Origin: an uncultured Desulfovibrio sp.
Lineage (GTDB): Bacteria > Desulfobacterota > Desulfovibrionia > Desulfovibrionales > Desulfovibrionaceae
Length of the DNA stretch: 64,000 nt
Assembly: GCF_944324935.1 (NCBI RefSeq)
Contig: NZ_CALUYG010000003.1
Coordinates: 28,340-92,339 of the forward strand
Direction: 5' to 3'
Below the pieces are notes generated by a model. The model made no database searches, was not told the DNA's origin, and was given only the letters and a program-made list of their open reading frames with translations. This document shows, one piece after another, positions 52,431-64,000 of this stretch (the first letter of the stretch is position 1; every line of letters begins with the position of its first letter). The translations under genes were made by a program, and so were the position numbers.

Positions 52431-52508
52431 CGTGCGCCATGCCGGCCGGCAAGGGACCGCCCCGCTTCCTGTCGGTCGTGCAACGGCGTGATCTCATAAG
52501 GAGCTGCC

Positions 52509-53111
52509 ATGAATACGGAAGAACTCGTCGCCCATTTCCGTGCGGGAAAAAGCGTGACGCCCGGCACCGCGGAATATGAGGCACTGTTGCGGTGCAGTCA
52601 CGAAGCCATGCGCATCACGGCGGAACTGAACACGGCCTATCGTTCGCCTGAGCGCATACGCGAACTCATGTCGCAACTCACGGGAACACCTCTTGATGCG
52701 GGCTTTGCCCTGTTCCCGCCCTTCTACAGCGATTTCGGCAAGAACATCCGCATCGGGAAGAATGTCTTCATCAATGCCTGCTGCTGCTTCCAGGATCAGG
52801 GGGGCATCACCATCGGGGACGGCAGCCTCATCGGGCACAGGGTCGTGCTGGCCACCATCAATCACGGTTTTTTGCCCGAGGAACGGTCGAGCTGCCGCCC
52901 TGCTCCCATCGTCATCGGCCGGAATGTCTGGATCGGGTCCGGCGTCATCGTGCTGCCCGGCATCAGCATCGGGGACAATGCCATCGTGGCCGCCGGGGCC
53001 GTGGTCACGCGGGACGTGGCGGCGGACAGCGTCGTGGCCGGAACGCCTGCCAGGTTCATCCGAAGCATCACCGACATGACGGCGCAGGAAAAGCAGGCCT
53101 GCACCGCCTGA
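52509..53111 (+). CDS. Maltose/galactoside O-acetyltransferase-like enzyme
   Basis: A 200-residue CoA-dependent acetyltransferase of the LacA/NodL/Maa group. The N-terminal Mac domain (about 15-70) with ELNTAYRSPERIRELMSQL is followed by left-handed beta-helix repeats (NIRIGKNVFINACCCF, ITIGDGSLIGHRV, IGDNAIVAAGAVVTRDV). The catalytic His is expected in INHGF near residue 117. It likely acetylates a sugar, either for detoxification or envelope modification. ATAAGGAGC precedes the ATG. It is the last gene before the mobile element's left boundary. Confidence 0.9.
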   Translation: MNTEELVAHFRAGKSVTPGTAEYEALLRCSHEAMRITAELNTAYRSPERIRELMSQLTGTPLDAGFALFPPFYSDFGKNIRIGKNVFINACCCFQDQGGITIGDGSLIGHRVVLATINHGFLPEERSSCRPAPIVIGRNVWIGSGVIVLPGISIGDNAIVAAGAVVTRDVAADSVVAGTPARFIRSITDMTAQEKQACTA

Positions 53112-53261
53112 GCCGCTCCCCCGGCAACCACCCCGGACGGATGCGCGGCGGCAGCCGCCGCTTCTTGGACAGGCAGCACGCGACATGAGGGGGCGGACGG
53201 CCCCGGCCAGCGCACGGGCACGCCCGATGTACCCGCGCGCCCCTTTCCGCCGGATACGAAA

Positions 53262-53347
53262 AAAGGGGTACGGCATTACCCGTAACCCCTTGTTTTCTCT
53301 GGAGCCAGCTAAGAGACTTGAACTCTTGGCCTGCTGATTACGAATCA
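53262..53347 (-). other. Left boundary of the mobile element: terminator hairpin plus tRNA-Thr 3' half
   Basis: Read on the minus strand, 53347-53300 is the 3' part of a threonine tRNA: anticodon loop with CGT, T-loop GTTCAAGTC, acceptor and CCA. The 5' half is missing because the sequence diverges inside the anticodon stem. A hairpin (GGGGTTACGGG arm, then a T-run) follows the CCA. The same layout recurs at 63,834-63,922. The surrounding 53,112-53,555 has no gene. Confidence 0.75.
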
Positions 53348-53363
53348 GTTGGTAGCAGTTTTT

Positions 53364-53472
53364 TTGAGTTACTTCAAATTATACGGAGTAACTTTTTCAA
53401 TGGGTTAGACTTCCGTTGAGTTACCCCCAATTACCTGTTATTCCCGTTCTGGTGGAACCCCGGTGGAACCCC
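53364..53472. repeat. Candidate integrase arm sites
   Basis: TTGAGTTAC occurs at 53364-53372 and 53416-53424, with an inverted AGTAACT at 53387-53393. The 11-mer GGTGGAACCCC occurs twice in tandem at 53451-53461 and 53462-53472, and once more at 63817-63827 near the right end. Such short repeats between the att core and the integrase gene fit arm-type binding sites. Confidence 0.5.
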
Positions 53473-53555
53473 GAGAATAAAAATCAGCAGTCCACGCGGG
53501 CATAATCAGCAGGTCTGGAACGGGGCTGGAATGGTCTCGAATGGGGGGACAAGAC

Positions 53556-54749
53556 ATGCGCCTGACGAAAAGAAGCGTTGAGGGGCTGGAAGCGGCGGAC
53601 AAGCGGTACGAGGTGCGGGACGATGACTTGCCCGGCTTTCTTGTGCGTGTCGGTGTGACCGGCGAAAAGTCTTTCTACCTCATGTACCGAGCCGGAAAGG
53701 GGAGAGGGGCGGCAAAGCGGCGGCTTGCCCTCGGTTCTTTCCCCGCCGTTACCGTGGAGCAGGCGCGGAAGCTGGCGCGGGAAAAGCTCGCGCTTGTCAC
53801 AATGGGGGCGGACCCTGCCGAAGTATTGCGCGAGGAGAAGGCGACGCGCTCCGTATCCTCGGTGCTGGAGCAGTTCCTTGCCGAACATGTGCGGGCAAAG
53901 CTCAAGCCCGGAACGGTGCGCTGCTATGAGCAGCAGGCGGCGGCCCATATCCTGCCCGCTCTGGGCGCGCTCAAGATAACCGAGGTGTCCGCCCGGCAGG
54001 TGAGCGGCCTGCATCATTCCTTGCGGGAGACGCCCTATCAGGCGAACAGGGTACTTGCCACGCTCTCGAAGTTCTTCAACTGGTGCGAGGTGGCAGGCTT
54101 CCGCGACAGGGGGACAAACCCCGTTTTGGGCGTGGAACGGTTCAAGGAAAGCAAGCGCATGGTCTTCATGGGAAAGGCCGAAGTGGAGGCCATAGGCGCC
54201 AGCATTGCCAGGCTGGAATCATGCGGGAAGCTTTCCCCGGTGGCGGCGGCCGCCTTCAAGGTGCTGCTCTTCACAGGGGCGCGTTGTGGTGAAGTGACCA
54301 CGCTCAAGTGGAGCTACCTTGACCTTGAGCGCGGCCTTGCCCATCTGCCGGACAGCAAGACCGGCGCAAAGACCATCCACCTGCCCGCCGCCGCTCGCGC
54401 CGTGCTGCTCTCCCTGCCGCGCATCAATGAATACTGTTTCCCCGGGCGATACGAACGGGGGCATATCGTAGGCGTATCCAAAATGTGGAAGCGGGTTCTT
54501 GACGATGCGGGGCTTTCCGGCTGGCGCATCCATGACTTGCGGCACGCCTTCGCATCCTATGCCGTGAATAGCGGCAAATCCCTGCCCATCGTCGGCAAGA
54601 TGCTGGGGCACACGCAGGCGGCCACCACCGCACGATATGCCCATCTGGCGGAAAACCCCGTTGCCGCCGCCGCTGAAAGCACAGCTCAGGAAATCCAGAA
54701 AGATTTGACCGGCGGCAAGGTGATACCGTTCCGCAAGCTGGCGGGCTAA
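53556..54749 (+). CDS. int: Tyrosine integrase (P4-like)
   Basis: A 397-residue site-specific recombinase. It has the N-terminal DUF4102-type domain (RLTKRSVEGLEAADKRYEV...), an SAM-like core-binding domain (about 100-190) and the catalytic domain with the Arg in FTGARCGEV, HDLRHAFAS, LGHTQAATTARYAH with the nucleophile Tyr. P4-type integrases use tRNA 3' ends as targets, which fits the flanking tRNA-Thr half. GGGGGG lies seven bases before the ATG at 53556; an ATG five codons earlier lacks a site. The gene points away from the left boundary into the element. Confidence 0.94.
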   Translation: MRLTKRSVEGLEAADKRYEVRDDDLPGFLVRVGVTGEKSFYLMYRAGKGRGAAKRRLALGSFPAVTVEQARKLAREKLALVTMGADPAEVLREEKATRSVSSVLEQFLAEHVRAKLKPGTVRCYEQQAAAHILPALGALKITEVSARQVSGLHHSLRETPYQANRVLATLSKFFNWCEVAGFRDRGTNPVLGVERFKESKRMVFMGKAEVEAIGASIARLESCGKLSPVAAAAFKVLLFTGARCGEVTTLKWSYLDLERGLAHLPDSKTGAKTIHLPAAARAVLLSLPRINEYCFPGRYERGHIVGVSKMWKRVLDDAGLSGWRIHDLRHAFASYAVNSGKSLPIVGKMLGHTQAATTARYAHLAENPVAAAAESTAQEIQKDLTGGKVIPFRKLAG

Positions 54750-54798
54750 GGCCGTCCTTCTTCCTTGCCGACCTTCCCCCAATTTGTCCGTTTTTTGG

Positions 54799-54846
54799 GT
54801 GTAACTCGTGTAACATGTGTAACTACCCTACAGCCACAAGGGTTTG
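54799..54846. repeat. GTGTAAC iterons and one arm of a 20-bp inverted repeat
   Basis: GTGTAAC occurs three times at an exact 9-base period (54799, 54808, 54817). It is followed at once by CCTACAGCCACAAGGGTTTG (54827-54846), whose exact reverse complement is at 60827-60846, again beside GTTACA-type repeats. Confidence 0.8.
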
Positions 54847-54909
54847 CGAGCCGCCCACCTTGTTTTTTTCGTTTTTTCAAAAGTGGGCAGGTGGGCGGTC
54901 TGTTGCCTT

Positions 54910-54930
54910 GTGTAACTCGATAGGTTACAC
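54910..54930. promoter_or_regulatory. Operator-like palindrome before higB
   Basis: GTGTAAC (54910-54916) and GTTACAC (54924-54930) form a perfect inverted repeat with a 7-base gap, ending 7 bases before the higB start codon. Its position suits autorepression by HigA. The half-site equals the iteron found nearby and after the primase gene. Confidence 0.6.
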
Positions 54931-54937
54931 TTTGGGC

Positions 54938-55216
54938 ATGATCAAGACGTTTGCACACAAGGGCCTTGAAGTCTTTTTCCTGACAGGCAACACAAAGGGG
55001 ATTCAGGCAAAGCATTCCCGCCGTCTGGCGATGATTCTTGACTTGCTCGACAGCGCCCGCGCGCCGTCGGACATGAATTTTCCGGGTTCCCGTCTGCACA
55101 TGCTCAAAGGCAATCTTGCAGGACTTTGGAGTGTGACTATCTCCGGCAACTGGCGGTTGACGTTTCGCTTTCATGAAGGGGATGCCTACATTGTCGATTA
55201 CCAAGACTACCATTGA
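54938..55216 (+). CDS. higB: HigB/RelE-type toxin
   Basis: A 92-residue ribosome-dependent mRNA endonuclease toxin of the HigB branch. The visible core is RRLAMILDLLDSA (helix), then MNFPGSRLHMLKGNLAGLWSVTISGNWRLTFRF, of which GLWSVTISGNWRLTF is the family's most conserved stretch. It lies 14 bases before the antitoxin gene, the toxin-first order typical of HigBA. The start at 54938 sits right after the palindrome. The pair probably stabilises the element in its host. Confidence 0.92.
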   Translation: MIKTFAHKGLEVFFLTGNTKGIQAKHSRRLAMILDLLDSARAPSDMNFPGSRLHMLKGNLAGLWSVTISGNWRLTFRFHEGDAYIVDYQDYH

Positions 55217-55230
55217 AAAGGGGGAAACAT

Positions 55231-55527
55231 ATGGAGCGGACAAGGAAGCCGTCCCTGCCGGGTGACATACTCAAGGAAATGTATCTTGACCCTCTGGGGA
55301 TGACCATTGCCGCCTTTGCGGAACGTATAGGAGTTTCCCGCAAGACGGTTTCGGCCATTGTGAACGGGCGCGCCCCTGTCACTGTGGATATGGCGTTACG
55401 TCTGGCGCGCGCGTTCAATACAACGCCGGACCTTTGGCTAAATCTTCAGCAGGCTGTCGATATTTGGGAGGCGCGGCGAAATCCGGGGAACTGGATGCAG
55501 ATACAGCCCATTGCGTATCCCGTGTAG
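55231..55527 (+). CDS. higA: HigA antitoxin (XRE-type HTH)
   Basis: A 98-residue DNA-binding antitoxin. The HTH is AAFAERIGVSRKTVSAIVNG (about 31-50), followed by the HigA-typical LARAFNTTPDLWLNLQ. It should neutralise the upstream toxin and repress the operon through the palindrome at 54910-54930. GGGGGA precedes the ATG at 55231; a TTG six codons earlier is weaker. Confidence 0.93.
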   Translation: MERTRKPSLPGDILKEMYLDPLGMTIAAFAERIGVSRKTVSAIVNGRAPVTVDMALRLARAFNTTPDLWLNLQQAVDIWEARRNPGNWMQIQPIAYPV

Positions 55528-55546
55528 ACCTTATTTTCCCCGGCTA

Positions 55547-55629
55547 GGCATGGACTAGCTACCCATGCCGAAAAGGCGGATACCCTTGCCGCCCTGCCGG
55601 GGATTCACCAAGGGTAAGCCCGGCAAGGG
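55547..55629 (+). promoter_or_regulatory. Alternative hairpins before the membrane/coiled-coil gene
   Basis: GGCATGG/CCATGCC (55547-55569) is a first hairpin. Then CCCTTGCCG (55583-55591) can pair either with CAAGGGTA at 55609-55616 (using 55581-55588, 8 bp) or with CGGCAAGGG at 55621-55629 (9 bp). The second option hides the ribosome-binding AAGGGG of the gene starting at 55638; the two are mutually exclusive. Confidence 0.5.
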
Positions 55630-55637
55630 GGTAGGGT

Positions 55638-56399
55638 ATGAAGTCTTTGCAGCTGCATCAGACTGGCAAACCGGTAATTCTAGCGTTCTTTTTAGCGTGT
55701 TGTTTCATGTGTCTTTTTTTTTCAGCGCATGTGCTATTTTCCATCCTTGACTGTGCAAATGATGGAGGTGCAACTGGTTTCAAAATATATGCGATTCGGG
55801 GCGCTATTTGCTTATGCTCTTGTATTGCAATTCTTTCTTTTGCAATACAACACGTTAAAAATAATCGGTTAATAGAAGGAATTGCATTCATATTGTTTGT
55901 TTTTGGTAGTTCTCACCTTGCCCATGCGCTGCTGTCTTTTCTTTCGGAAAATTCTTTGGGGATGAAGAGTCTTCTTATTTCTGGCGTTGCTGCACTTGTT
56001 TTTCTTGTACTTGCCGTGTGCGTGAAGCGCGACCTTTCCACGAGCCGCCCCACCTCGGGAAGCGAATATGCCGCCCTTACCGCCAAGGATGAGGAACTGG
56101 AACAGGCCCGGGCTGAGCTGGCCTCCCTGCGGGAAGAGAATGCCGCCCTGAAAGCGGAGCTGGAAAAGGCCCGGCAGGAGAAAGGGCAGGACGCGCCGAA
56201 GTGGTACGGCCTGATTGCCGTTGTTGAGCAATGCCGAAGCGAGGGCAAAACGCCTCAGGAAACAGCGGTGGAGTTGAAAGCACGCGGGGCTTCTTACGCC
56301 ATTATTGGGGGGCTGCTCCACCCAGAAGGGGATATTTCAGACTGGACGCAATACGGGAGTAACATTGTCGAAGGGAACACCAAAAAACTGGCGTGGTAG
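55638..56399 (+). CDS. Membrane protein with coiled coil, unknown function
   Basis: The protein has 253 residues. Four TM helices occupy about residues 12-135; a coiled coil follows (about 150-188, KDEELEQARAELASLREE); and a C-terminal soluble segment (WYGLIAVVEQCRSEGKTPQETAVELKARGAS) ends the protein. The first 380 bases are clearly AT-rich compared with the GC-rich rest, so the gene looks like a fusion of pieces with different origins. I do not recognise a family. By place, between the TA pair and the regulator, it could be an accessory or superinfection-type membrane protein; that is a guess. Confidence 0.68.
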   Translation: MKSLQLHQTGKPVILAFFLACCFMCLFFSAHVLFSILDCANDGGATGFKIYAIRGAICLCSCIAILSFAIQHVKNNRLIEGIAFILFVFGSSHLAHALLSFLSENSLGMKSLLISGVAALVFLVLAVCVKRDLSTSRPTSGSEYAALTAKDEELEQARAELASLREENAALKAELEKARQEKGQDAPKWYGLIAVVEQCRSEGKTPQETAVELKARGASYAIIGGLLHPEGDISDWTQYGSNIVEGNTKKLAW

Positions 56400-56403
56400 T
56401 CCG

Positions 56404-56478
56404 TACCATGCCCCATCCGTCAAAATACCATACCAAGCCGCCAAAATACCACACCTTACCAGACTTGCGTACCACACC
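56404..56478. repeat. TACCAYRCC iterons before the AlpA-like gene
   Basis: Four 9-bp copies of TACCAYRCC start at 56404, 56426, 56447 and 56470, that is 22, 21 and 23 bases apart, about two helical turns. They lie between the membrane-protein gene and the regulator at 56532 and look like binding sites on one face of the helix. Confidence 0.7.
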
Positions 56479-56490
56479 ACACAGCCCGCT

Positions 56491-56530
56491 AACCTCCTTG
56501 CAATTACTTCAAGTCGCAAGGAGGTTTTTT
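56491..56530 (+). terminator. Terminator-like hairpin that contains the next gene's ribosome site
   Basis: AACCTCCTTGC (56491-56501) pairs perfectly with GCAAGGAGGTT (56516-56526), followed by T6 (56525-56530). The AAGGAGG of the 3' arm is the ribosome-binding site for the ATG at 56532. The hairpin could end transcription or block translation of that gene. Confidence 0.7.
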
Positions 56531-56531
56531 C

Positions 56532-56777
56532 ATGTCTGCGACGATACTTGAAAGCACCGCAAATGCCGCCCCCCGCTGGCTGTCCACCAAGGCCGCCGCC
56601 GCGTATCTGGGGCTGGCCGTCTCCACCCTCAACAATGACCGCGTGACCCGTCTGCTGGGGCTGCCCTTTTCCCGGATGGGGCGGCGCATCCTCTATGACC
56701 GGCTGGAGCTGGACGCCTACCTGCTGGCCCGGATGGAGGGCGGCAGCAGGATTCAGGCCCAGGGCAAGGGGGCGTAG
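56532..56777 (+). CDS. Excisionase/AlpA-like helix-turn-helix protein
   Basis: An 81-residue small DNA-binding protein: WLSTKAAAAYLGLAVSTLNNDR is a MerR/excisionase-type winged helix (residues 16-37), then RILYDRLELDAYLLARM as in AlpA and Xis proteins of integrative elements. It could direct excision or activate element genes, as AlpA does for an element's integrase. Four iterons and the hairpin upstream suggest tight control. Confidence 0.8.
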   Translation: MSATILESTANAAPRWLSTKAAAAYLGLAVSTLNNDRVTRLLGLPFSRMGRRILYDRLELDAYLLARMEGGSRIQAQGKGA

Positions 56778-56778
56778 C

Positions 56779-57216
56779 ATGGACGCGAAAAAGCCCCCGA
56801 AGCTTTGGCGGCGGTGGGGGCGGAACGAGGCTGGCAAAGAACCGTTTGCCTGTTCCCATTCTGCCGAATCCGCCCGCGAATCGCAACATCAATCCTGCCG
56901 GGCCTGCTCATTTTTCCGCGCCGTGCCGCTGCCCTCGGGCCGCCTCCGCACGCTGTGCATGCTCCACGGCACAAAGAACCCCGTGGAACCCTGCCACGGC
57001 TTTCAGCCGGGCCGCTGGGAAGAGGTCTGGGCCGCTCCGGCGGACAGGCCGCGCCAGTCGTTTGTCTGCCGGGCCTGCGCTCATGGCGTCGTGCCGCACA
57101 TCCGCGCCGCCCTGCTGGGCCTTGTGGGCTGCATGGCCGGGCATGTGCCGGACGGGGCCGCGTACCCCGTTCCCTGCTGGGACTTCACGGCAAGGGGGGT
57201 GCGCCATGCCGCGTAA
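56779..57216 (+). CDS. Cysteine-rich small protein, possible zinc fold
   Basis: A 145-residue protein that starts right after the regulator's stop codon. It carries several Cys pairs (SCRACSFF, TLCMLH, VEPCHGF, SFVCRACAHG) suggesting one or two zinc-binding sites. Family unknown. The high GC content opens several frames here; I favour this one for its position in the plus-strand gene chain and its spaced CRAC motifs. Confidence 0.55.
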   Translation: MDAKKPPKLWRRWGRNEAGKEPFACSHSAESARESQHQSCRACSFFRAVPLPSGRLRTLCMLHGTKNPVEPCHGFQPGRWEEVWAAPADRPRQSFVCRACAHGVVPHIRAALLGLVGCMAGHVPDGAAYPVPCWDFTARGVRHAA

Positions 57217-57535
57217 CTCGCTTCTCCGGCATGAAATGAGCCGTCCCCTTGCCGGTCACCATCTCTTGACTTTTGCAAGGCCCTGTGGCCTTCTGGGGGT
57301 CCCAAATCAAGTGAGGCGCCACACGCGCCTTTCCTTCCTCCCAAGGGTAGGAAAAAGTCGTGTCGCACATTCTGCTGTCAAAGCCCCTGCCGGACGTATG
57401 CCCGATGGGTCGCTTTCGCATATTGGCAGGGTTGTAACGTCCAGAACCCGTGAGGGCTGGCGGCTTCACTTGAGCCGGGGAGCGTTACGCCCTGCCTTTT
57501 TTGTTTTCCACCATCCCAAATCAAGTGAGGCATTC
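57217..57535 (+). promoter_or_regulatory. Structured leader or small-RNA region
   Basis: No gene is convincing here. TCCCAAATCAAGTGAGGC occurs at 57300-57317 and again at 57514-57531, the second copy containing the ribosome site of the gene at 57536. Between them a long stem (GGCAGGG-tt-GTAACG at 57425-57439 with CGTTAC-g-CCCTGCC at 57483-57496) is followed by T6, an intrinsic terminator. Its apical part holds TCACTTGA (57466-57473), the exact complement of TCAAGTGA in both direct repeats. It looks like a terminated RNA able to pair with the downstream ribosome site. Confidence 0.55.
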
Positions 57536-58036
57536 ATGTATCCTACCTCCCTTGCTTCCGCGTCCCACGGCCCCGAACTAACCCCCGCCACAGCCGCCCG
57601 ATGCCGCCGCGTCTTCCGGCGCAAGAATGCCCTGCGCCTGCCGGGCGATCGGACGGAACAGCCCACCATGCCGGAAGGCTCCGCTTGCCTGGCTGGTACT
57701 GACCGACCCACGGCGGCCCCTGCACCTTCGCTGTATGCCGATGCCCTGGCCGCGCGTGATGCTCTGCAAAGGGCAGCGGCGGGGCTGACCGCTTACCGGC
57801 AGGCCCTGAAAGACCTGCGGCGGGTGGCCGACGCCCTGCTGCCGCGCATATGTGGCCCGGAGGGCTACGCCTCCGCGAACGCGAGGCCATTCCTCTGGGA
57901 TGCCTTGAGCGCCAAGCTGTACGACATTGAACTGCTGTTGTCCGATGCTCACGACACCGCCACGGGGCAGGCGGCGGCGTTCGTGCGGCTGGCCCGCGAG
58001 CTGGAACCGGCAAGGGAGGATGCGGGCCATGAGTAG
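57536..58036 (+). CDS. Small protein of unknown function upstream of the primase
   Basis: The protein has 166 residues. The first 60 are Arg/Ala-rich and probably disordered; the rest (about 65-165) is predicted helical ([22 protein letters not shown]). GTGAGG lies at proper distance from the ATG. It overlaps the primase-helicase start by 8 bases, so the two are co-translated and it may be a replication accessory. I do not recognise the family. Confidence 0.65.
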
Positions 58037-60638
58037 CGCCGACGCCTTGACCCTCTTTGCCGAAACCCTCACCGCCGCCGGTCTGGTGCTGAACGGGCCG
58101 CCCATTGCCGACGGGGCTACGCATCGCTGCGGCGTGGCAGGCAAGCCGCGCGGCAGGGACGGGGCCTACCGCATCCACCTTGACGCCCCGGCCTGCTGCT
58201 GGTGGCGCAACTGGGGCTCGGGCGATACCGGCACGCGGACGCTTGCGCCGGAAAAGGACATGTCCCCCGCCGAACGCCAGACCCTGCGGGAGCGCATCGC
58301 CGCCGCCCGCAAGGCCGCTGAGGAAGAACAGGCAAAGCGCCACGCCGCCGCCGCGAAGCTGGCCCGCATCCTCTGGGAACGGGCCACGCCCGCGCCGGAC
58401 TCGCATCCCTACCTTGTCCGCAAGCGGGTTCCCGCTCTTGGCCTGCGGCGGGACGGGCAAGGGCGGCTTGTGGTTCCCGTGCGGGATGCGGACGGGGGGC
58501 TTGCCAGTCTGCAATTCATCTTGCCGGAAAAGCCGGTCAACGGCCCGGACAAGCTCTTTCTCAAGGGCGGACGGACGGCGGGGGGCTACTGCCCCCTTCC
58601 GGCAAGGGACGGTGGCCACAACGGGCCGCTGCTGATTGCCGAGGGCTACGCCACAGCCGCCAGTCTACATCTTGCCACGGGCCATGCCTGCCTTGTGGCC
58701 TTCAATGCCGGGAACCTCGAAGCCGTGGCCCGCATGGCGCGGAAACGGTATCCCGACCGGGAAATCATCCTGTGCGCGGACAACGACGTGCGCCCCGACG
58801 ACCGGCCCAATACGGGCGTGGAGGCGGCAACGAAGGCGGCGCAAGCCGTGGGCGGCAAGCTGGCCGTCTGCCCGGCGCATGAGGGGCGGCCCACGGATTT
58901 CAACGACCTGCATTGCCTGCGCTCCCTCGAGGCCGTCGCGGAGGCGGTGGAGAAGGCCCGCAAGGAAGGGGCCGCCGTCCATCTGCCGGAGGGCTTTTTC
59001 ATTCGGGAGACCGGCAAGAACCCGGGCCTGTTCAAGGTGGAGGAAAAAGGAGACGTGACCTTTGACCTGCGCCTGGGGCCGCCGCTGCGTATCATCGGCA
59101 AGACTTTTGATGACGTGTCGGAAAACTGGGGAACATTCCTCAGTTGGAAAGACCCCACCGGTACGGAGCACCGCTGGGCGCTTCCTGATGACCTGTTGCA
59201 GGGGCAAGGCAGGGAATATGCGCAGATACTCGCGCGGGGCGGCTACTCCATCGCGCCGGGACAGGCCGCGAAATTCGCAACGTTCATCCAGGGCGTGCGC
59301 ACGGAACGCTTTGTAACGTGCGTCCAGCGCATCGGCTGGCACGCGGCGGCCTATGTCATGCCGGATACGGCTTACGGCGTCCCCGCGGATACCGTCGTAC
59401 TCCAGTCGGCACGGCATGCGAAGATGTTCCGCGCGGGCGGCACGCTGGACGGCTGGCGGGAAATCCCCGGCCTGTGCGCGGGCAACTCCCGCCTTGTCTT
59501 CGCGCTGTGTCTCGCCTTTGCCGGTCCGCTGCTGCGGCTGTCCGGGCTGGAGGGGGGCGGCTTCTCTTTCGAGGGGTGCAGCTCTTCCGGCAAGACGACG
59601 GGGCTGCAGGTGGCGGCGTCCGTCTGGAGCGGGCCGGAGCATGTGCGCTCATGGCGAACCACGGACAACGCGCTTGAAGGCGTGGCGGCGCTCCACAACG
59701 ACAATCTGCTTATCCTTGACGAGGTGGGGCAGGTGGGGGCGGCGGCGCTGTCCGAGGCGGCCTATATGCTGGCAAACGGACAGTCCAAGGGGCGCGCGCT
59801 GCGGGACGGCAGCCCCCGTGCCCCGCTGACGTGGCGGCTGCTCTTCCTCTCCAGTGGGGAGCTGGGGCTTGCCGACAAGCTGGCGGAAAGCGGCCTGAAA
59901 TCCAGAGGGGGGCAGGAGGTGCGCTTTGTGGGGCTGCCCGTGGACAAGGCCATGTTGTCCGACCTTCACGGCCTGCCGGACGCCGGGGCCGTGGCCGACC
60001 GCCTCAAGATGCTGTGTTCCGACCACTACGGCCATGCCGGGCGGGCGTTCCTGCAATGGCTCTGCCCCCGGCAAGATGAGGTGGGGAAGGACATCCGGGA
60101 GAATCTGCCCGCGCTGGTGGACAGGCTGTGCCCGCCTGACGCCACGGAACAGGTGCGACGGGTGGCGAAACGCTTTGCCCTTGTCCTTGCCGGAGGGCTG
60201 GCCGCGCAAAAGGCCGGGCTGCTGCCGGATGATATGGACGTTCGGCAGGCGGTCCAACGCTGTTTCACCGACTGGCTGGAGGCCAGAGGCGGAACCGGGC
60301 CAGCCGAAGACGCGGCCATACTGGCGCAAGTGCGCCTGTTCATTGAGCGGCACGGGGCAAGCCGCTTTCAGGACATGGACACCGAACAGAGCACATGCAT
60401 CAACCGTGTGGGCTTCAGGCAGAGGAGGTCGGACGGCGGGACGGAATACCTCATCCTGCCGGAAAGCTTCGGGGCCGAAGTGGTCAAGGGCCATTCGCCA
60501 CGTCGGGCGGCCGCCGTGCTGCGTGATGCCGGATGGTTGCGGGGGGCGGCGGGCAGGAACACCGTCCTTGAGCGTTTGCCCGGTCTGGGGGTGACTCGAC
60601 TGTATTCTCTTGTCCTGCCGGGGGAACATCCCGCCTGA
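58029..60638 (+). CDS. Primase-helicase with Toprim and DUF927 domains
   Basis: An 869-residue replication protein. The N-terminal region (about 1-120) resembles the zinc/CHC-type or DUF3854-like part; Toprim follows with [12 protein letters not shown] (about 200) and [10 protein letters not shown] (about 251), then DFNDLH. From about 330 to 680 is the DUF927 helicase-type ATPase: Walker [10 protein letters not shown] (about 515) and Walker [11 protein letters not shown] (about 560), then a sensor stretch RLLFLSSGE. Similar proteins replicate phage satellites and integrative plasmids. GGGAGG precedes the ATG at 58029. An iteron array lies directly after it, a likely origin. Confidence 0.9.
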
Positions 60639-60658
60639 AAAAAGTTGACCCCCAAAAA

Positions 60659-60875
60659 GCGGTTACAGCGGTTACAGCGGTTACAAGGCTATAAAATGCT
60701 TATATCACGATATGTTACAGTGTAACCAAATTGTGTAACCGCTTGGTTGTTGAGTGGGCAAACGGTTACAAATCCGCCCTGTTTTGTAACCGCTGTAACC
60801 GAACGGTAAAGAAAGTGGTTACAGCACAAACCCTTGTGGCTGTAGGCTTGTAACCGCTGTAACCGTTGTAACCGC
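60659..60875. repeat. Iteron array, candidate replication origin of the element
   Basis: Three tandem copies of GCGGTTACA (60659-60685) at the left and three tandem inverted copies TGTAACCGC/TGTAACCGT (60849-60875) at the right flank about 160 bases with an AT-rich core and further copies, including the palindrome GTTACA-G-TGTAAC (60714-60726). One arm of the 20-bp inverted repeat lies at 60827-60846. No open frame fits between the primase stop and the gene at 60913. Confidence 0.8.
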
Positions 60876-60912
60876 AAAAAACAGCCAAACTTGCGTGGAA
60901 GGAGAAACAACG

Positions 60913-61284
60913 ATGTGCGACACTCACGAGACCATATATCCGGGGCAGGAATTTTTCCGCATCAGCCATGCCGGGGAACGGGCCGGACTGTACAGGGTGG
61001 AGGTTCTGCCGACGGGCGAGGAAGCGGAAACGCGGCTGGGGGGACCGCTGCGGGCAAGCGTCATCACGGGGGACGGCGGCGGCCTGCTGCTGGAATGGCT
61101 CGACCCTGCCAAGCATCCGCATTCCCACGTCATCCCGGCGGAAAAGATGCGCGGGCGGCTGGTCCTTCCCCTGCGGCGCATGGCAAGGGGCGGCTGGCGC
61201 AATCATATCCACAACGAAGAGCGGCGGCGGATGTTCCGGCGCTTCCTTGTGGCGGTGTGGAACGCGGTATGTCGGGAGGGCTGA
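60913..61284 (+). CDS. Small unknown protein after the iteron array
   Basis: A 123-residue soluble protein of mixed charge (YPGQEFFRISHAGERAG at the N-terminus, MFRRFLVAVWNAVCRE at the C-terminus). No motif or family recognised. AAGGAG precedes the ATG. It heads a run of short, tightly packed genes to 63,118 that are probably one operon. A role in the element's replication or packaging is possible from place alone. Confidence 0.68.
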   Translation: MCDTHETIYPGQEFFRISHAGERAGLYRVEVLPTGEEAETRLGGPLRASVITGDGGGLLLEWLDPAKHPHSHVIPAEKMRGRLVLPLRRMARGGWRNHIHNEERRRMFRRFLVAVWNAVCREG

Positions 61285-61286
61285 AC

Positions 61287-61574
61287 ATGGGCAAGGGCCT
61301 GTTCGACAGGGTGCTTGACGGCTGGCCGGAGGGAACCGGCAAAGAAGGGACTCCGCATCCGTGGCCGGTGTTGCACACCCTGAACCGGGAGTACCATTGC
61401 GCCGCCTGGCCGGAGGATGACGGCGGCGGGCTGGTGCTCTACCCGGATGCCGGATTGCTGGCCTCGGAGAAGACCGCCGCCCTGCGCTTTGCTCAAGACA
61501 ACCTGCCCGCCCTGCTGCGGGACATGTGCCTTGAGCATCTGCCGCGTCGGGTACGCCTTGGGGAGAGAGCATGA
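61287..61574 (+). CDS. Small unknown protein
   Basis: A 95-residue soluble protein (FDRVLDGWPEGTGKEG, then LVLYPDAGLLASEKTAALRFAQ). GGGAGGG lies six bases before the ATG, and the gene ends in an ATGA overlap with the next. Not recognised. Confidence 0.65.
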   Translation: MGKGLFDRVLDGWPEGTGKEGTPHPWPVLHTLNREYHCAAWPEDDGGGLVLYPDAGLLASEKTAALRFAQDNLPALLRDMCLEHLPRRVRLGERA

Positions 61575-61735
61575 GCCAGAAACCCATTGTTTCATTCTGC
61601 CCCTCATGCGGAAAGCGGCATTGCGTCATCTGTTACAAGCGGGAAAAATCTGGTACACGCTATTTCATATGCAGAAGGTGTCATATGAAAATGCGCCTGA
61701 AATATATTCAAACTACAAAATGGAGACTATCATGA
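61571..61735 (+). CDS. 54-residue zinc-ribbon protein
   Basis: A very short gene found by following the overlaps: ATG at 61571 inside the previous stop (ATGA) and TGA at 61733 inside the next start. The product has CPSC...CVIC and later CRRC (FCPSCGKRHCVICY, then YFICRRCHMK), enough for a zinc ribbon like those of small phage transcription or replication factors. GGGAGAGAGC precedes the start. The local sequence is more AT-rich than its neighbours. Confidence 0.7.
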   Translation: MSQKPIVSFCPSCGKRHCVICYKREKSGTRYFICRRCHMKMRLKYIQTTKWRLS

Positions 61736-62436
61736 AAAGTTCGATCGCAACGACTTTGCACGGCTTTGTTTCCGCAATGGACGATCTGGACGGGGGCAAG
61801 GTTCTCTCTCACAACGTGGGCGCGGAAATCCTGTTCAAATCCGCCGAACGGCACGAGGCGCTTGTGGTTCAGGTTCGCGAGGAAGCCGCACGGATCAACA
61901 ACGACAACAACCTTTCCGCGTCGGGAAAAGCCGGGAAGCTCCGGGAGCTTTATGCCGAACGCATGGCGGGGCGGGCACAGATCGCGATCAATCCCGATAT
62001 GCTGGCGGCCCTGCGAAAGGAGCGGGAAACGGCCTTCCAGCGCGTACAGGAGGCCCGCACGCTTCCCGTTGAGGGAGATCCGATCCTGGCCGAACTCCGG
62101 GCGCAGGAAGTGCGGCGCGTGGCGCGGGAACAACCGGAAGCGCAGCGCGTCCAGTTCCATGCCGACGGCGGACCGGAAATCCAACGGGCTTTGGAATCCG
62201 GGCCGCTTCCCCTGCTGCCGGATGAATACCTCTCCCGAGTCCAAGACGCGCGGGCAAAGGCCGTTGTGCCTGCCGCCGTCGAACAACTGAAACGGCTGGA
62301 CGCGCTGCTCTCCGGGCTGGAAGAGCATGAACGCCGCTTCCCGATGGCCCTCGTCTCAGCCTGCGGCCTGCCCCGCTCCCACGCGGATGACTTTTTGCGG
62401 GCGCAGGAAGCCGCACGGCGGCGGGAGGTGGCCTAA
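61732..62436 (+). CDS. Helical protein of unknown function
   Basis: A 234-residue charged, helix-rich protein (LHGFVSAMDDLDGGKVL at the N-terminus; AAVEQLKRLDALLSGLEEHERR near 185-207). No TM helix or catalytic motif. It overlaps both neighbours by 1-4 bases. The composition (Glu/Arg/Ala) and size would fit a scaffold-like or DNA-packaging accessory protein, but I have no direct evidence. Confidence 0.68.
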   Translation: MKSSIATTLHGFVSAMDDLDGGKVLSHNVGAEILFKSAERHEALVVQVREEAARINNDNNLSASGKAGKLRELYAERMAGRAQIAINPDMLAALRKERETAFQRVQEARTLPVEGDPILAELRAQEVRRVAREQPEAQRVQFHADGGPEIQRALESGPLPLLPDEYLSRVQDARAKAVVPAAVEQLKRLDALLSGLEEHERRFPMALVSACGLPRSHADDFLRAQEAARRREVA

Positions 62437-62876
62437 TGACCGATAGGAAAACGGTGGAAAACAGCTCGGGCCGTGACGCTGGCGGGCGCTTTGCCAAAGG
62501 CTGCCCCGCCGGGCCGGGACGCCCGAAGGGGAGCGCAAACGCGGTCTTGACGCAGGCGCGGCAGTGGGTTCAGGAGCGGGGCTTGCCGATGATGATTGAG
62601 GCAGCCGAAGCGGGCGACGCCGACGCCCTGAAATGCCTCGTCACGCTGGCCATGCCGCGCCAGAAGCCCAACACGCCGCCGCTGGATTGCCTCGAGGCCA
62701 TGCCGCTACCGAGAACCGACCGGGAGCTGGGAGAGCTGGCCGCCTTCCTGCTGGAAAAAGTGGGGGCCGGGCAACTGGCCGTCAGTGACGCCGACGCCGT
62801 TATGGCCCTGGCGAAACGGCGCGTCGACTTCGACAAGCTGGGCCGCCCCTTCAGCTTCCCGGAGGTGGAACTGTGA
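62436..62876 (+). CDS. DUF5681 protein
   Basis: A 146-residue protein with the DUF5681 pattern near residues 10-28 (GRDAGGRFAKGCPAGPGRPKG). The domain is frequent in small proteins of phages and integrative elements, often near packaging genes, and its role is not established. It starts in the TAATG overlap with the previous gene. The basic Gly/Pro-rich N-terminus could bind nucleic acid. Confidence 0.83.
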   Translation: MTDRKTVENSSGRDAGGRFAKGCPAGPGRPKGSANAVLTQARQWVQERGLPMMIEAAEAGDADALKCLVTLAMPRQKPNTPPLDCLEAMPLPRTDRELGELAAFLLEKVGAGQLAVSDADAVMALAKRRVDFDKLGRPFSFPEVEL

Positions 62877-63118
62877 TGGAGGTGATCCGCAGCGTCTCCC
62901 CCGACGGTTCCAGCGTGGCGCAGATTGTCATTAACCGCGACTCGGGGCTGTCGGATGACGAACGGCACATAAGGGACATTCGCGAACGGTGGGAACGGCA
63001 GGAGGCGGATGCCCGACGATTGCGGGGGCGGCTCTGCCTTGCCGGGGGTGGCATCCTGCTGACGCTGCTCGCCTTCATGCTTGCCGTGCCGCTTGGTTAC
63101 GCCATAGCGGCGTTCTGA
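62876..63118 (+). CDS. Small membrane protein
   Basis: An 80-residue protein: a charged N-terminal half (DDERHIRDIRERWERQEAD) and one C-terminal TM helix (about 55-78, GILLTLLAFMLAVPLGY). It starts in the TGATG overlap with the DUF5681 gene; a GTG one codon earlier is equally possible. Last gene of the packed run. Not recognised. Confidence 0.68.
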   Translation: MEVIRSVSPDGSSVAQIVINRDSGLSDDERHIRDIRERWERQEADARRLRGRLCLAGGGILLTLLAFMLAVPLGYAIAAF

Positions 63119-63210
63119 GGCGAAAAGGGAAAGGCCGGGGGAAACAGGCGGCGACTGCGGGCCGTTTTGGCGGTGCTGGCGCGGGCGGTGTTGCGACGGG
63201 CAGGGGGGAA

Positions 63211-63694
63211 GGTTGCAGGGGGGTTGCAGGGTGCAACCATAAAAAAAGGCGGCCTCTCAACTGCGCCCAACTTTGGGCTCAGTGAATACAGGGCCGGGGG
63301 GGGTGACAACGGAAGTCATCCCCCTTCCAGCCTGCCGCAGCGGGGAAGGTTAACGCCTTGGTTAACGGTGTTAACCATAAAAAAGGGGGGTTAACCATAC
63401 CTTCACCGCGTCCAACGGTTGACGGCTTGGTTGACGGTGTAAACCACAAAAAAAGGGCGTCAACCGCAGGGGACATATTCGACTTAGGCCCCCCCTCTTG
63501 CCGGGAATCCTCGGGAAAAATCGGGACCCGTGGGGGCAACTCTGGGGGCAACTCTCTGGCGCCCGGAGCCCTCAAATCCGCGAAGGCCGGACAGGCAACG
63601 CGCTCAAGTTTGGGCTGAGCTAAGATTTCAGCTCAGCCGCCAAGGTCAACGGCATGGTCAACACCGTTGACCACAAAAAAAGGAGGCGTTGACC
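63211..63694. repeat. Four modular covarying hairpin repeats
   Basis: Each unit has a heptamer X twice in direct order, a 3-base gap, its reverse complement X', then A(T/C)AAAAAA(A)GG. Units 2-4 have a second X' after 13-15 bases. X is GGTTGCA (unit 1, 63211-63250), GGTTAAC (unit 2, 63348-63396), GGTTGAC (unit 3, 63417-63465; inner X' has one mismatch) and GGTCAAC (unit 4, 63644-63694). Because X changes in all places together, the pairing is conserved rather than the sequence. The units occupy a gene-free stretch (63,119-63,816) that also has a 9-bp hairpin at 63613-63638. Confidence 0.85.
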
Positions 63695-63816
63695 GGCAAA
63701 GGGCAGCAAGAGAACCGCGACCCTTGCCGCCTCACCTGCCGGACGCATCCCGCAGGCTGTCCAGGCTATGGGGAGTGTCCAGACAAGAAGCGTGCCAGTC
63801 TCCCCAATTTTTTTCT

Positions 63817-63922
63817 GGTGGAACCCCGAACGAAAAAAGGACTTACGGCGTTACCCGTAAGTCCTTGTTTTCTCTGGAGCCGGCGAAGGGACTTGAACCC
63901 GCAACCTGCTGATTACAAATCG
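63817..63922 (-). other. Right boundary of the mobile element: arm repeat, terminator hairpin and tRNA-Thr 3' half
   Basis: GGTGGAACCCC (63817-63827) is followed by a hairpin (GGACTTACGG arm) and then, on the minus strand, 63922-63875 is a tRNA-Thr 3' half with anticodon TGT, T-loop GTTCAAGTC and CCA. As at the left end, the 5' half is missing. The last 78 bases of the window after it show nothing I can identify. Confidence 0.72.
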
Positions 63923-64000
63923 GAAAAATGGCTCTTTCCCGGTATTTCCCGCTGCTTCCCAATCGCTCGTTTTTGTCCTGTTTCTTCAAAAGAAACGGAA

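Follow-up and report, generated by a model that had tools for sequence, protein, structure and literature searches.

The right end of an integrated, apparently phage-satellite-like element in an uncultured Desulfovibrio sp. carries four short repeat units, each of which is probably a double-stranded, pac-type recognition site for a terminase small subunit (TerS), and the array would allow packaging by helper phages of different TerS specificity. Direct support comes from a plan and a set of words that the units have in common with terS genes, from constraint on the repeats at the DNA level, from covariation between a TerS helix and the word, from arrays of mixed words and from the fixed strand of the units. 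The units have the look of DNA loading tags, each taken from the packaging genes of a different virus, four viruses in all.

The window, by which we mean the whole 64-kb stretch of DNA that was analysed, was scanned on both strands for the plan together with its A-tract, and this returned four matches that are exactly units 1–4 (Table 1), at the positions and with the plan described in an earlier note on this DNA. The same strict scan (X1 at least 5/6 like X2, a spacer of 5–6 bases, a 3-base gap, X3 at least 4/6 complementary and A6 or longer) gave no match in 1,151,430 strand-bases from 60 unrelated viral loci, which served as a control. The core of each unit is a 6-mer beginning with GT, present as a direct repeat and an inverted copy, and the common register is GTnnnn, 5 or 6 bases, GTnnnn, 3 bases, the inverted copy, a few bases and A6-7. 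The earlier note had seen that the words vary by unit and change together inside a unit, which the unit sequences bear out, and that units 2–4 have a second inverted copy, which we find 14–16 bases beyond the first, past the A-tract. The one mismatch that it reported in unit 3 (GTAAAC) is real and is common to homologous units in other genomes. A comparison with random sequence, also proposed there, agrees with these results: besides the absence of the strict plan from the control, perfect 7-mer matches to X..X..X' number three in the 64 kb, all of which are units (1, 2 and 4), and they are rare in first-order Markov sequences (none in nine of ten and one in the other). With one mismatch allowed and no A-tract required, the window gave 25 rows (7 of them units) against 8, 2, 13, 20 and 12 in five Markov sequences. 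The looser plan by itself is therefore near chance level; it takes the A-tract together with the plan to discriminate, so the A-tract belongs to the signal.

Table 1. Features of the element and of the unit array, with window positions. For the units, the last column gives the TerS class or loci with the same word.
Feature	Positions	Strand	Evidence or sequence	TerS counterpart
Tyrosine integrase	53541..54749	+	Pfam PF00589 9.4e-21; phrog_1 4.6e-60	
HigB-like toxin / HTH antitoxin pair (cargo)	54815..55527	+	PF05015 9.4e-21; PF01381 5.2e-14	
int-alpA RNA RF02996	55537..55614	+	58.2 bits, gathering 35.8; between antitoxin and AlpA-like genes	
AlpA-like excisionase/regulator	56532..56777	+	PF12728 4.3e-6; phrog_66 5.3e-6	
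Toprim-DUF927 primase/helicase, start codon uncertain	57927..60638	+	PF06048 2.1e-73; phrog_1139 3.4e-99	
GGTTACA/TGTAACC iteron cluster, origin-like (putative)	60661..60890	.	Sequence, by eye	
Three small genes	61732..63118	+	61732-62436; 62436-62876 (DUF5681-like, below cutoff); 62873-63118	
Unit 1	63211..63250	+	GTTGCA-N5-GTTGCA-GGG-TGCAAC + A7	xAIQK helix class (GTTGCA); same word in L100, L122, L124, L201, L198
Unit 2	63348..63396	+	GTTAAC-N6-GTTAAC-GGT-GTTAAC + A6 + extra GTTAAC	AAIS[K/Q] class; L103, L105
Unit 3	63417..63465	+	GTTGAC-N6-GTTGAC-GGT-GTAAAC + A7 + extra GTCAAC	QAISK class, single example L132 (GTTGAC-GGTCTG-GTTGAC-GGC-GTCAAC)
Unit 4	63644..63694	+	GTCAAC-N6-GTCAAC-ACC-GTTGAC + A7 + extra GTTGAC	AAISR class; L102, L107, L112 (D. 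piger ATCC 29098), L131

The units occupy a non-coding stretch 3' of the last gene of an integrated element that runs from 53.5 to 63.1 kb, with about 10 kb between the integrase gene and the last unit. This interval holds a satellite gene set, namely an integrase, an AlpA/excision regulator and a replication gene. The three small genes before the array gave no structural or terminase matches, and their homologues adjoin a unit array in another genome (G103:C5). Pfam and PHROGs matched no capsid, portal, tail or large terminase protein among the ten element proteins scanned, a set that leaves aside short reading frames such as one ending at 61574; there was one weak spanin-like match (phrog_89, 7e-4). 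No TerS match was found in the window's genome, which thus shows no sign of a helper residing alongside the element. The int-alpA RNA was the only Rfam match in the element (52500–64000 searched). An ERCC4-type nuclease gene (phrog_3490) lies between the primase gene and the units in most related elements showing a primase (L270–L282), whereas the element in the window gave no match to it.

By eye, partial tRNA-like 3' ends with a terminator-like hairpin flank the element on both sides (53252–53330 and 63830–63915), apparently from different tRNAs, which suggests stacked insertions; ARAGORN called no tRNA in the window, whose end is the contig end, and a related array in G252 lies about 300 bp from an intact tRNA-Thr. 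Two further repeat structures were observed in the element. At about 54795–54840 on the minus strand, three GTTACAC repeats spaced 9 bases apart are followed by CCAAAAAACGG, a unit-like plan missed by the strict scan. Between units 1 and 2 (63302–63325), a small hairpin keeps an AACGGA loop while its stem changes, from GTGAC AACGGAA GTCAT in the window to CAC AACGGAT GTG in relatives (L002, L003 and L069); it is perhaps a site for another terminase type.

The iteron cluster, which has repeats in both orientations 3' of the primase gene and closes with a triple repeat and A6, raises the question of whether the units are themselves replication sites whose words are iterons of the satellite primase, for which the ori/crr of P4 offers a comparison. 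Iterons after the primase gene are indeed present in the window and an origin could well consist of repeats ahead of an A-tract, but the words vary within one element that has one primase, the same sites occur in phage terS genes and the word tracks a TerS helix, and we regard this as the least probable of the alternatives, with hardly any weight.

A covariance model was built from eight units (from the window, G043 and G044). At E up to 0.01 it had matches in 10 of the 79 genomes that represent the genus, and at E up to 0.001 in 18 of the 348 that represent the order. One of the ten, G003 (E 0.0028, L077), lacks the plan and was rejected as a chance match. This search, which the earlier note had suggested, found related sites in other genomes; among relatives the direct repeat is kept and the inverted copy is often degenerate. 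In five genomes (G105, G108, G058, G181 and G243) the match fell inside an open reading frame that is a terS gene, and the site lies directly after the N-terminal HTH. The three of these proteins that were scanned (G105, G108 and G058) belong by their matches to phrog_1206, the terminase small subunit family. The gene next in line behind terS was scanned in two cases (G107 and D. piger), and both match phrog_2, terminase large subunit. Further terS loci were taken from genome and viral contigs in overlapping sets of 22, 6, 14 and the best 80 of 353, with 66 of those best 80 read and the other 14 not entered. All four words of the window (GTTGCA, GTTAAC, GTTGAC and GTCAAC) occur as TerS words, as do two further words from related arrays (GTCGCA and GTAGCA). 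These matches of site and word favour packaging sites with different addresses, one of the three options that the earlier note had put forward.

In terS genes of other bacteria (L108, L174, L191, L201 and others), three copies of the word at 12-base intervals often precede the inverted copy. Some phage-type proteins (L158, L159, L113, L114 and L116) have only the C-terminal part of the TerS family and seemingly no HTH. Searches of phage records with three TerS returned 5, 6 and 0 records, all partial and distant, with no close relative among them, so that with respect to studied phages the site stands as a candidate pac. A sequence search of solved structures gave nothing at E up to 0.1 and Foldseek gave no match at E of 0.001 or better; these TerS are therefore placed no further than an HTH plus a helical domain. 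A scan of viral contigs with GTYRACCAYAAAAAAAGG produced 60 stretches, none with the module plan (no strict-scan match), and these were reused as the negative control; many of them resemble AT-rich promoter or terminator contexts.

Within terS, the repeats are kept at the DNA level, beyond coding need. For 22 distinct terS genes, obtained from 36 records after dropping 5 duplicates and 9 without a KVxxxV motif (L113–L121), codons were redrawn 5000 times from each gene's own usage with the amino acids fixed. Perfect X2/X3 palindromes occur in 15 of the 22 genes, against a null mean of 0.27 (maximum 4 in 5000 draws), with 118 of 132 X2/X3 matches (null 73.7, sd 3.9) and 123 of 132 X1/X2 identities (null 102.5, sd 3.3). 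The encoded peptide varies (VNxxVNxVD, VDxxVDxVN, VAxxVAxCN or VAxxVAxCD) while the DNA symmetry is kept. Of 46 non-redundant TerS, 38 have two identical direct copies where 5.9 would be expected, an observed value that is favoured by the choice of the best GT repeat as register; the null for the 22 genes, whose register is set by the protein motif, is the fairer one. Just 3' of the site, 37 of 59 lysine codons are AAA, compared with 184 of 605 elsewhere in the genes, an excess that fits selection for the A-tract. The satellite units themselves cannot be put down to coding for a V-N-G-x-V-N peptide, an explanation that we rejected, as the spacer puts 19 of 41 out of frame and the symmetry surpasses the need of the peptide even within terS.

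The earlier note had read the units as selected for a fold, either of a plus-strand transcript in a structured RNA family or of single-stranded DNA at an origin. Folding energies lend this some weight, since units 2–4 beat shuffled sequences (z of −4.2 to −4.4; unit 1 is weaker, z −2.2), and so does the covariation of words within a unit. The terS sites point elsewhere: 38 of the 46 have an exact direct repeat, but no more than 22 have a perfect inverted copy and in 10 that copy matches at 3/6 or worse, so selection does not look to be preserving a fold. Units of the GTAGCA class are moreover non-palindromic, no Rfam family matched the units at E up to 1 (52500–64000 searched), and the word covaries with the HTH of a protein. 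Pairing as the sole basis of the covariation does not hold either, because the partner of the word is also an amino acid in the DNA-reading helix of another protein and not just the pairing strand. We consider a selected RNA or single-strand fold very improbable.

That covariation was followed in a set of 102 TerS-family records, of which 79 passed filters and 46 remained after removal of sequences with at least 90% identity. The 23 excluded records comprise 12 without the helix pattern and 11 that have it but show no GT repeat by the filter. Four of these 11 (L185, L187, L118 and L225, the last identical in sequence to L118) carry their word with a different spacing or with a variant in one of the copies, and seven (L116, L120, L222, L223, L224, L226 and L227) are without the word, five of them (L120, L222, L223, L224 and L227) having no such site by eye; the helix-word rule does not cover the whole TerS family. 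The two copies disagree in 7 of the 46 TerS, for which the second served as the word, a choice on which the agreement depends in that the first would reduce it.

Mutual information was calculated for 147 alignment columns of the 46 TerS, with the site-encoding columns set aside and residues numbered as in L100. Base 3 of the word is best informed by residue 31 (0.83 bits; runner-up 0.55), and base 4 and bases 4–6 by residue 34 (1.00 and 1.24 bits); residues 30 and 34 rank highest for base 5, and residues 20, 19 and 34 for base 6. The base-informative residues fall in the HTH, with residues 31 and 34 in the predicted recognition helix, and an AlphaFold model places the two main residues (32 and 35 in L112) near the start of a helix spanning 31–41. 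The sixth-ranked column for base 3 is a C-terminal one (residue 120). Prediction of the word from the nearest neighbour succeeded for 32.2 of 46 with seven helix residues and for 9.3 of 46 with the C-terminal domain (random pairs agree in about 17%), and with pairs of at least 55% identity excluded for 17.2 versus 0.3; the C-terminal domain thus predicts the word no better than chance. As the TerS are related and not independent, these mutual-information and shuffle tests deal with phylogeny through the removal at 90% identity and the C-terminal-domain control only; relatedness is not fully removed, yet it bears equally on both domains.

Six helix signatures have at least two members and together cover 32 TerS, in which the word of the class is exact in 30 and differs at the last base in 2: QAIQK with GTTGCA (10/10), TAIQK with GTTGCA (7/8), AAISR with GTCAAC (4/5), GAIQK with GTAGCA (3/3, Paraburkholderia included), KAIQK with GTCGCA (3/3) and NTIMK with GTGACC (3/3). 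Fourteen signatures represented by a single TerS have the words GTTGCA, GTTAAC (twice), GTTAGC, GTGGCC, GTAACC (twice), GTACGA, GTCGCA, GTTGAC, GTGCGA, GTTTCA, GTTTCC and GTTAGT. Of the residues found before AI or TI, K is paired with GTC, both T and Q with GTT and G with GTA, while A is ambiguous and depends on the following residues. After AI, AV, TI or TV, Q is paired with GCA (GCC and GCG in one case each), S with RAC (AAT in one case), R with CGA, N with TCC and I with TCA, whereas V or L after AV goes with AGC or AGT and M or L after TI or TV with ACC, several of these assignments being based on one TerS each, as is the counterpart of unit 3 (L132). TerS sequence appears to track the word through the HTH helix.

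Fifteen regions around model matches and the window make up 16 loci. In 13 of them at least one cassette gene is present, which may encode a primase, an ERCC4 nuclease or a counterpart of the window's g81/DUF5681/g234 set; none was found in L276, L283 and L284. The units are on the strand of the cassette genes in 13 of 13. Counted separately, at least two units are present in 13 of the 16 loci, 38 units in total, and no word is repeated within any locus under the strict scan, which leaves uncounted a second GTTAAC copy without an A-tract in G043 and single-copy GTCGCA hairpins in G043 and G103. Shuffles expect 5.0–6.2 repeats. For the words as read P is 0.0009, and merging near variants brings it to 0.0001; the two values become 0.014 and 0.002 when four relatives are dropped. 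One unit lies at least 2 kb from the others in two multi-unit loci, the second locus of G252 and that of G008. The words combine differently from element to element, with GTCAAC, GTTAAC, GTAGCA and GTCGCA in G238, and GTAGCA (or GTGGCA), GTTGAC and GTCAAC in G237 and G250, which belong to another genus. GTAGCA-class satellite units are imperfect palindromes. In a falsification test, a GTYGCA palindrome pattern gave 11 matches in 9 of 348 genomes, with 8 in array-bearing loci, 2 in terS and 1 elsewhere, and the pattern read backwards as a control gave none. The one match elsewhere, in G235, without a direct repeat and with no cassette gene match in its 3-kb locus, was set aside as chance.

Satellite units differ from terS sites in two respects. 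Their spacer is 5 bases in 19 of 41, which breaks the terS frame and keeps about one helical turn, and an extra inverted half-site is present in 10 of 41 units compared with 1 of 31 terS sites under the same scan. Both differences speak against the units being functionless terS fragments left by recombination, as do the mixed-word arrays, the retention of mostly the site alone and the spread over several genera. Some sequences do look the part: by eye, the G186 unit (L143/L284) retains about 20 bp of terS-like sequence after its A-tract, which suggests capture from phages, and unit 4 is little different from terS DNA. On balance, mere remnants are a very unlikely explanation.

The main rival to packaging sites is that the units are decoys, which bind helper TerS to titrate it and depress helper packaging without starting that of the satellite. 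This would rely on the same TerS recognition, and satellites that interfere with helper packaging are known, for example through Rpp binding to TerS, as described in PMC6739421 and PMC9026076. A single copy of each word would, however, make a poor sponge, and the strand is fixed relative to the cassette genes, although common descent could also yield that. We judge decoys unlikely, and somewhat less so than the other alternatives.

For the favoured reading as pac-type sites, TerS binding, the initiation of packaging and the use of units by individual helpers are what we infer from these patterns. A site would consist of two direct half-sites 11–12 bp apart, a third, inverted half-site 9 bp further on and then the A-tract. 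In phages, the same putative pac-type site sits within terS itself, and the satellite would bear several, one per TerS specificity class. When a helper phage is induced or infects, an oligomer of its TerS would bind the matching unit through the HTH helices, perhaps aided by a DNA bend at the A-tract; TerS would then recruit TerL, and the head would be filled with satellite concatemer from the matching unit.

P4, with its integrase, AlpA, primase and reliance on helper morphogenesis, is an example of packaging-site sharing with a helper. The window's element resembles P4-like satellites in its integrase, AlpA and primase, but it differs from P4 in the array of several TerS-class sites at its end, in the Toprim-DUF927 type of its primase and in lacking, as far as the ten proteins scanned show, any recognisable capsid-size or helper-control gene of P4. 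Sharing of packaging sites between satellite and helper is also known for the cos sites of PICIs and the pac sites of SaPIs (PMC6739421, PMC9026076 and PMC10803314). Like these cos- and pac-type PICIs (EcCICFT073 and the SaPIs), the element would be a small integrated satellite that uses a helper terminase through a cis packaging site. PICIs redirect packaging with a protein of their own (Rpp, Ppi or their own TerS; PMC6739421), whereas no redirecting protein was recognised among the ten element proteins scanned, and in its place there is a set of as many as four sites that differ in their predicted TerS specificity. The PICMI satellites of Vibrio likewise have int, alpA and a primase, with headful-like packaging of concatemers and no packaging genes of their own; PMC10803314 reports that neither pac nor cos could be identified for their helper, whereas candidate sites and the residues that probably read them can be defined here.

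Among packaging sites, lambda-family cosB offers an HTH TerS whose recognition helix contacts repeated R sites, one of them inverted, with DNA bending (PMC9026076). Its R sites are part of cos, in contrast to repeats within the terS coding sequence that form a graded series of words. The pac sites of SPP1 and SF6, as presented in PMC4737164, have direct repeats close to where the gene for the small terminase begins, and a proposed DNA bend. The same work finds pac-type TerS (SF6/SPP1) to bind weakly and with no preference for sequence, as SF6 TerS does on its own pac, which counts against the favoured reading; in the present family, residue-word covariation argues for sequence reading. Two things appear to be new as far as we have seen, an array in which each TerS class is represented by a single word and the correspondence between helix and word, with no description of either found in the titles and abstracts of the open-access literature, subscription literature being mostly outside this search; at the same level, the remark of the earlier note that it knew of no such element in the literature is consistent with what was found.

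It is likely that such satellites gather packaging addresses, one for each terminase specificity among their helpers, in a 'multi-key' arrangement that would open several helpers to them, and that a recognition code, in which two to three residues of the HTH helix set a 6-bp word within terS, applies to much of one TerS family. PMC6739421 notes that EcCICFT073 has two cos sites and asks why, and the arrangement proposed here is a possible answer to why some satellites have more than one packaging site. If it is correct, the sequence of a helper TerS would predict both the packaging site that is used and the satellites that the helper could carry. Word and helix change together across many phages, and the satellites appear to be an independent record of the same words.
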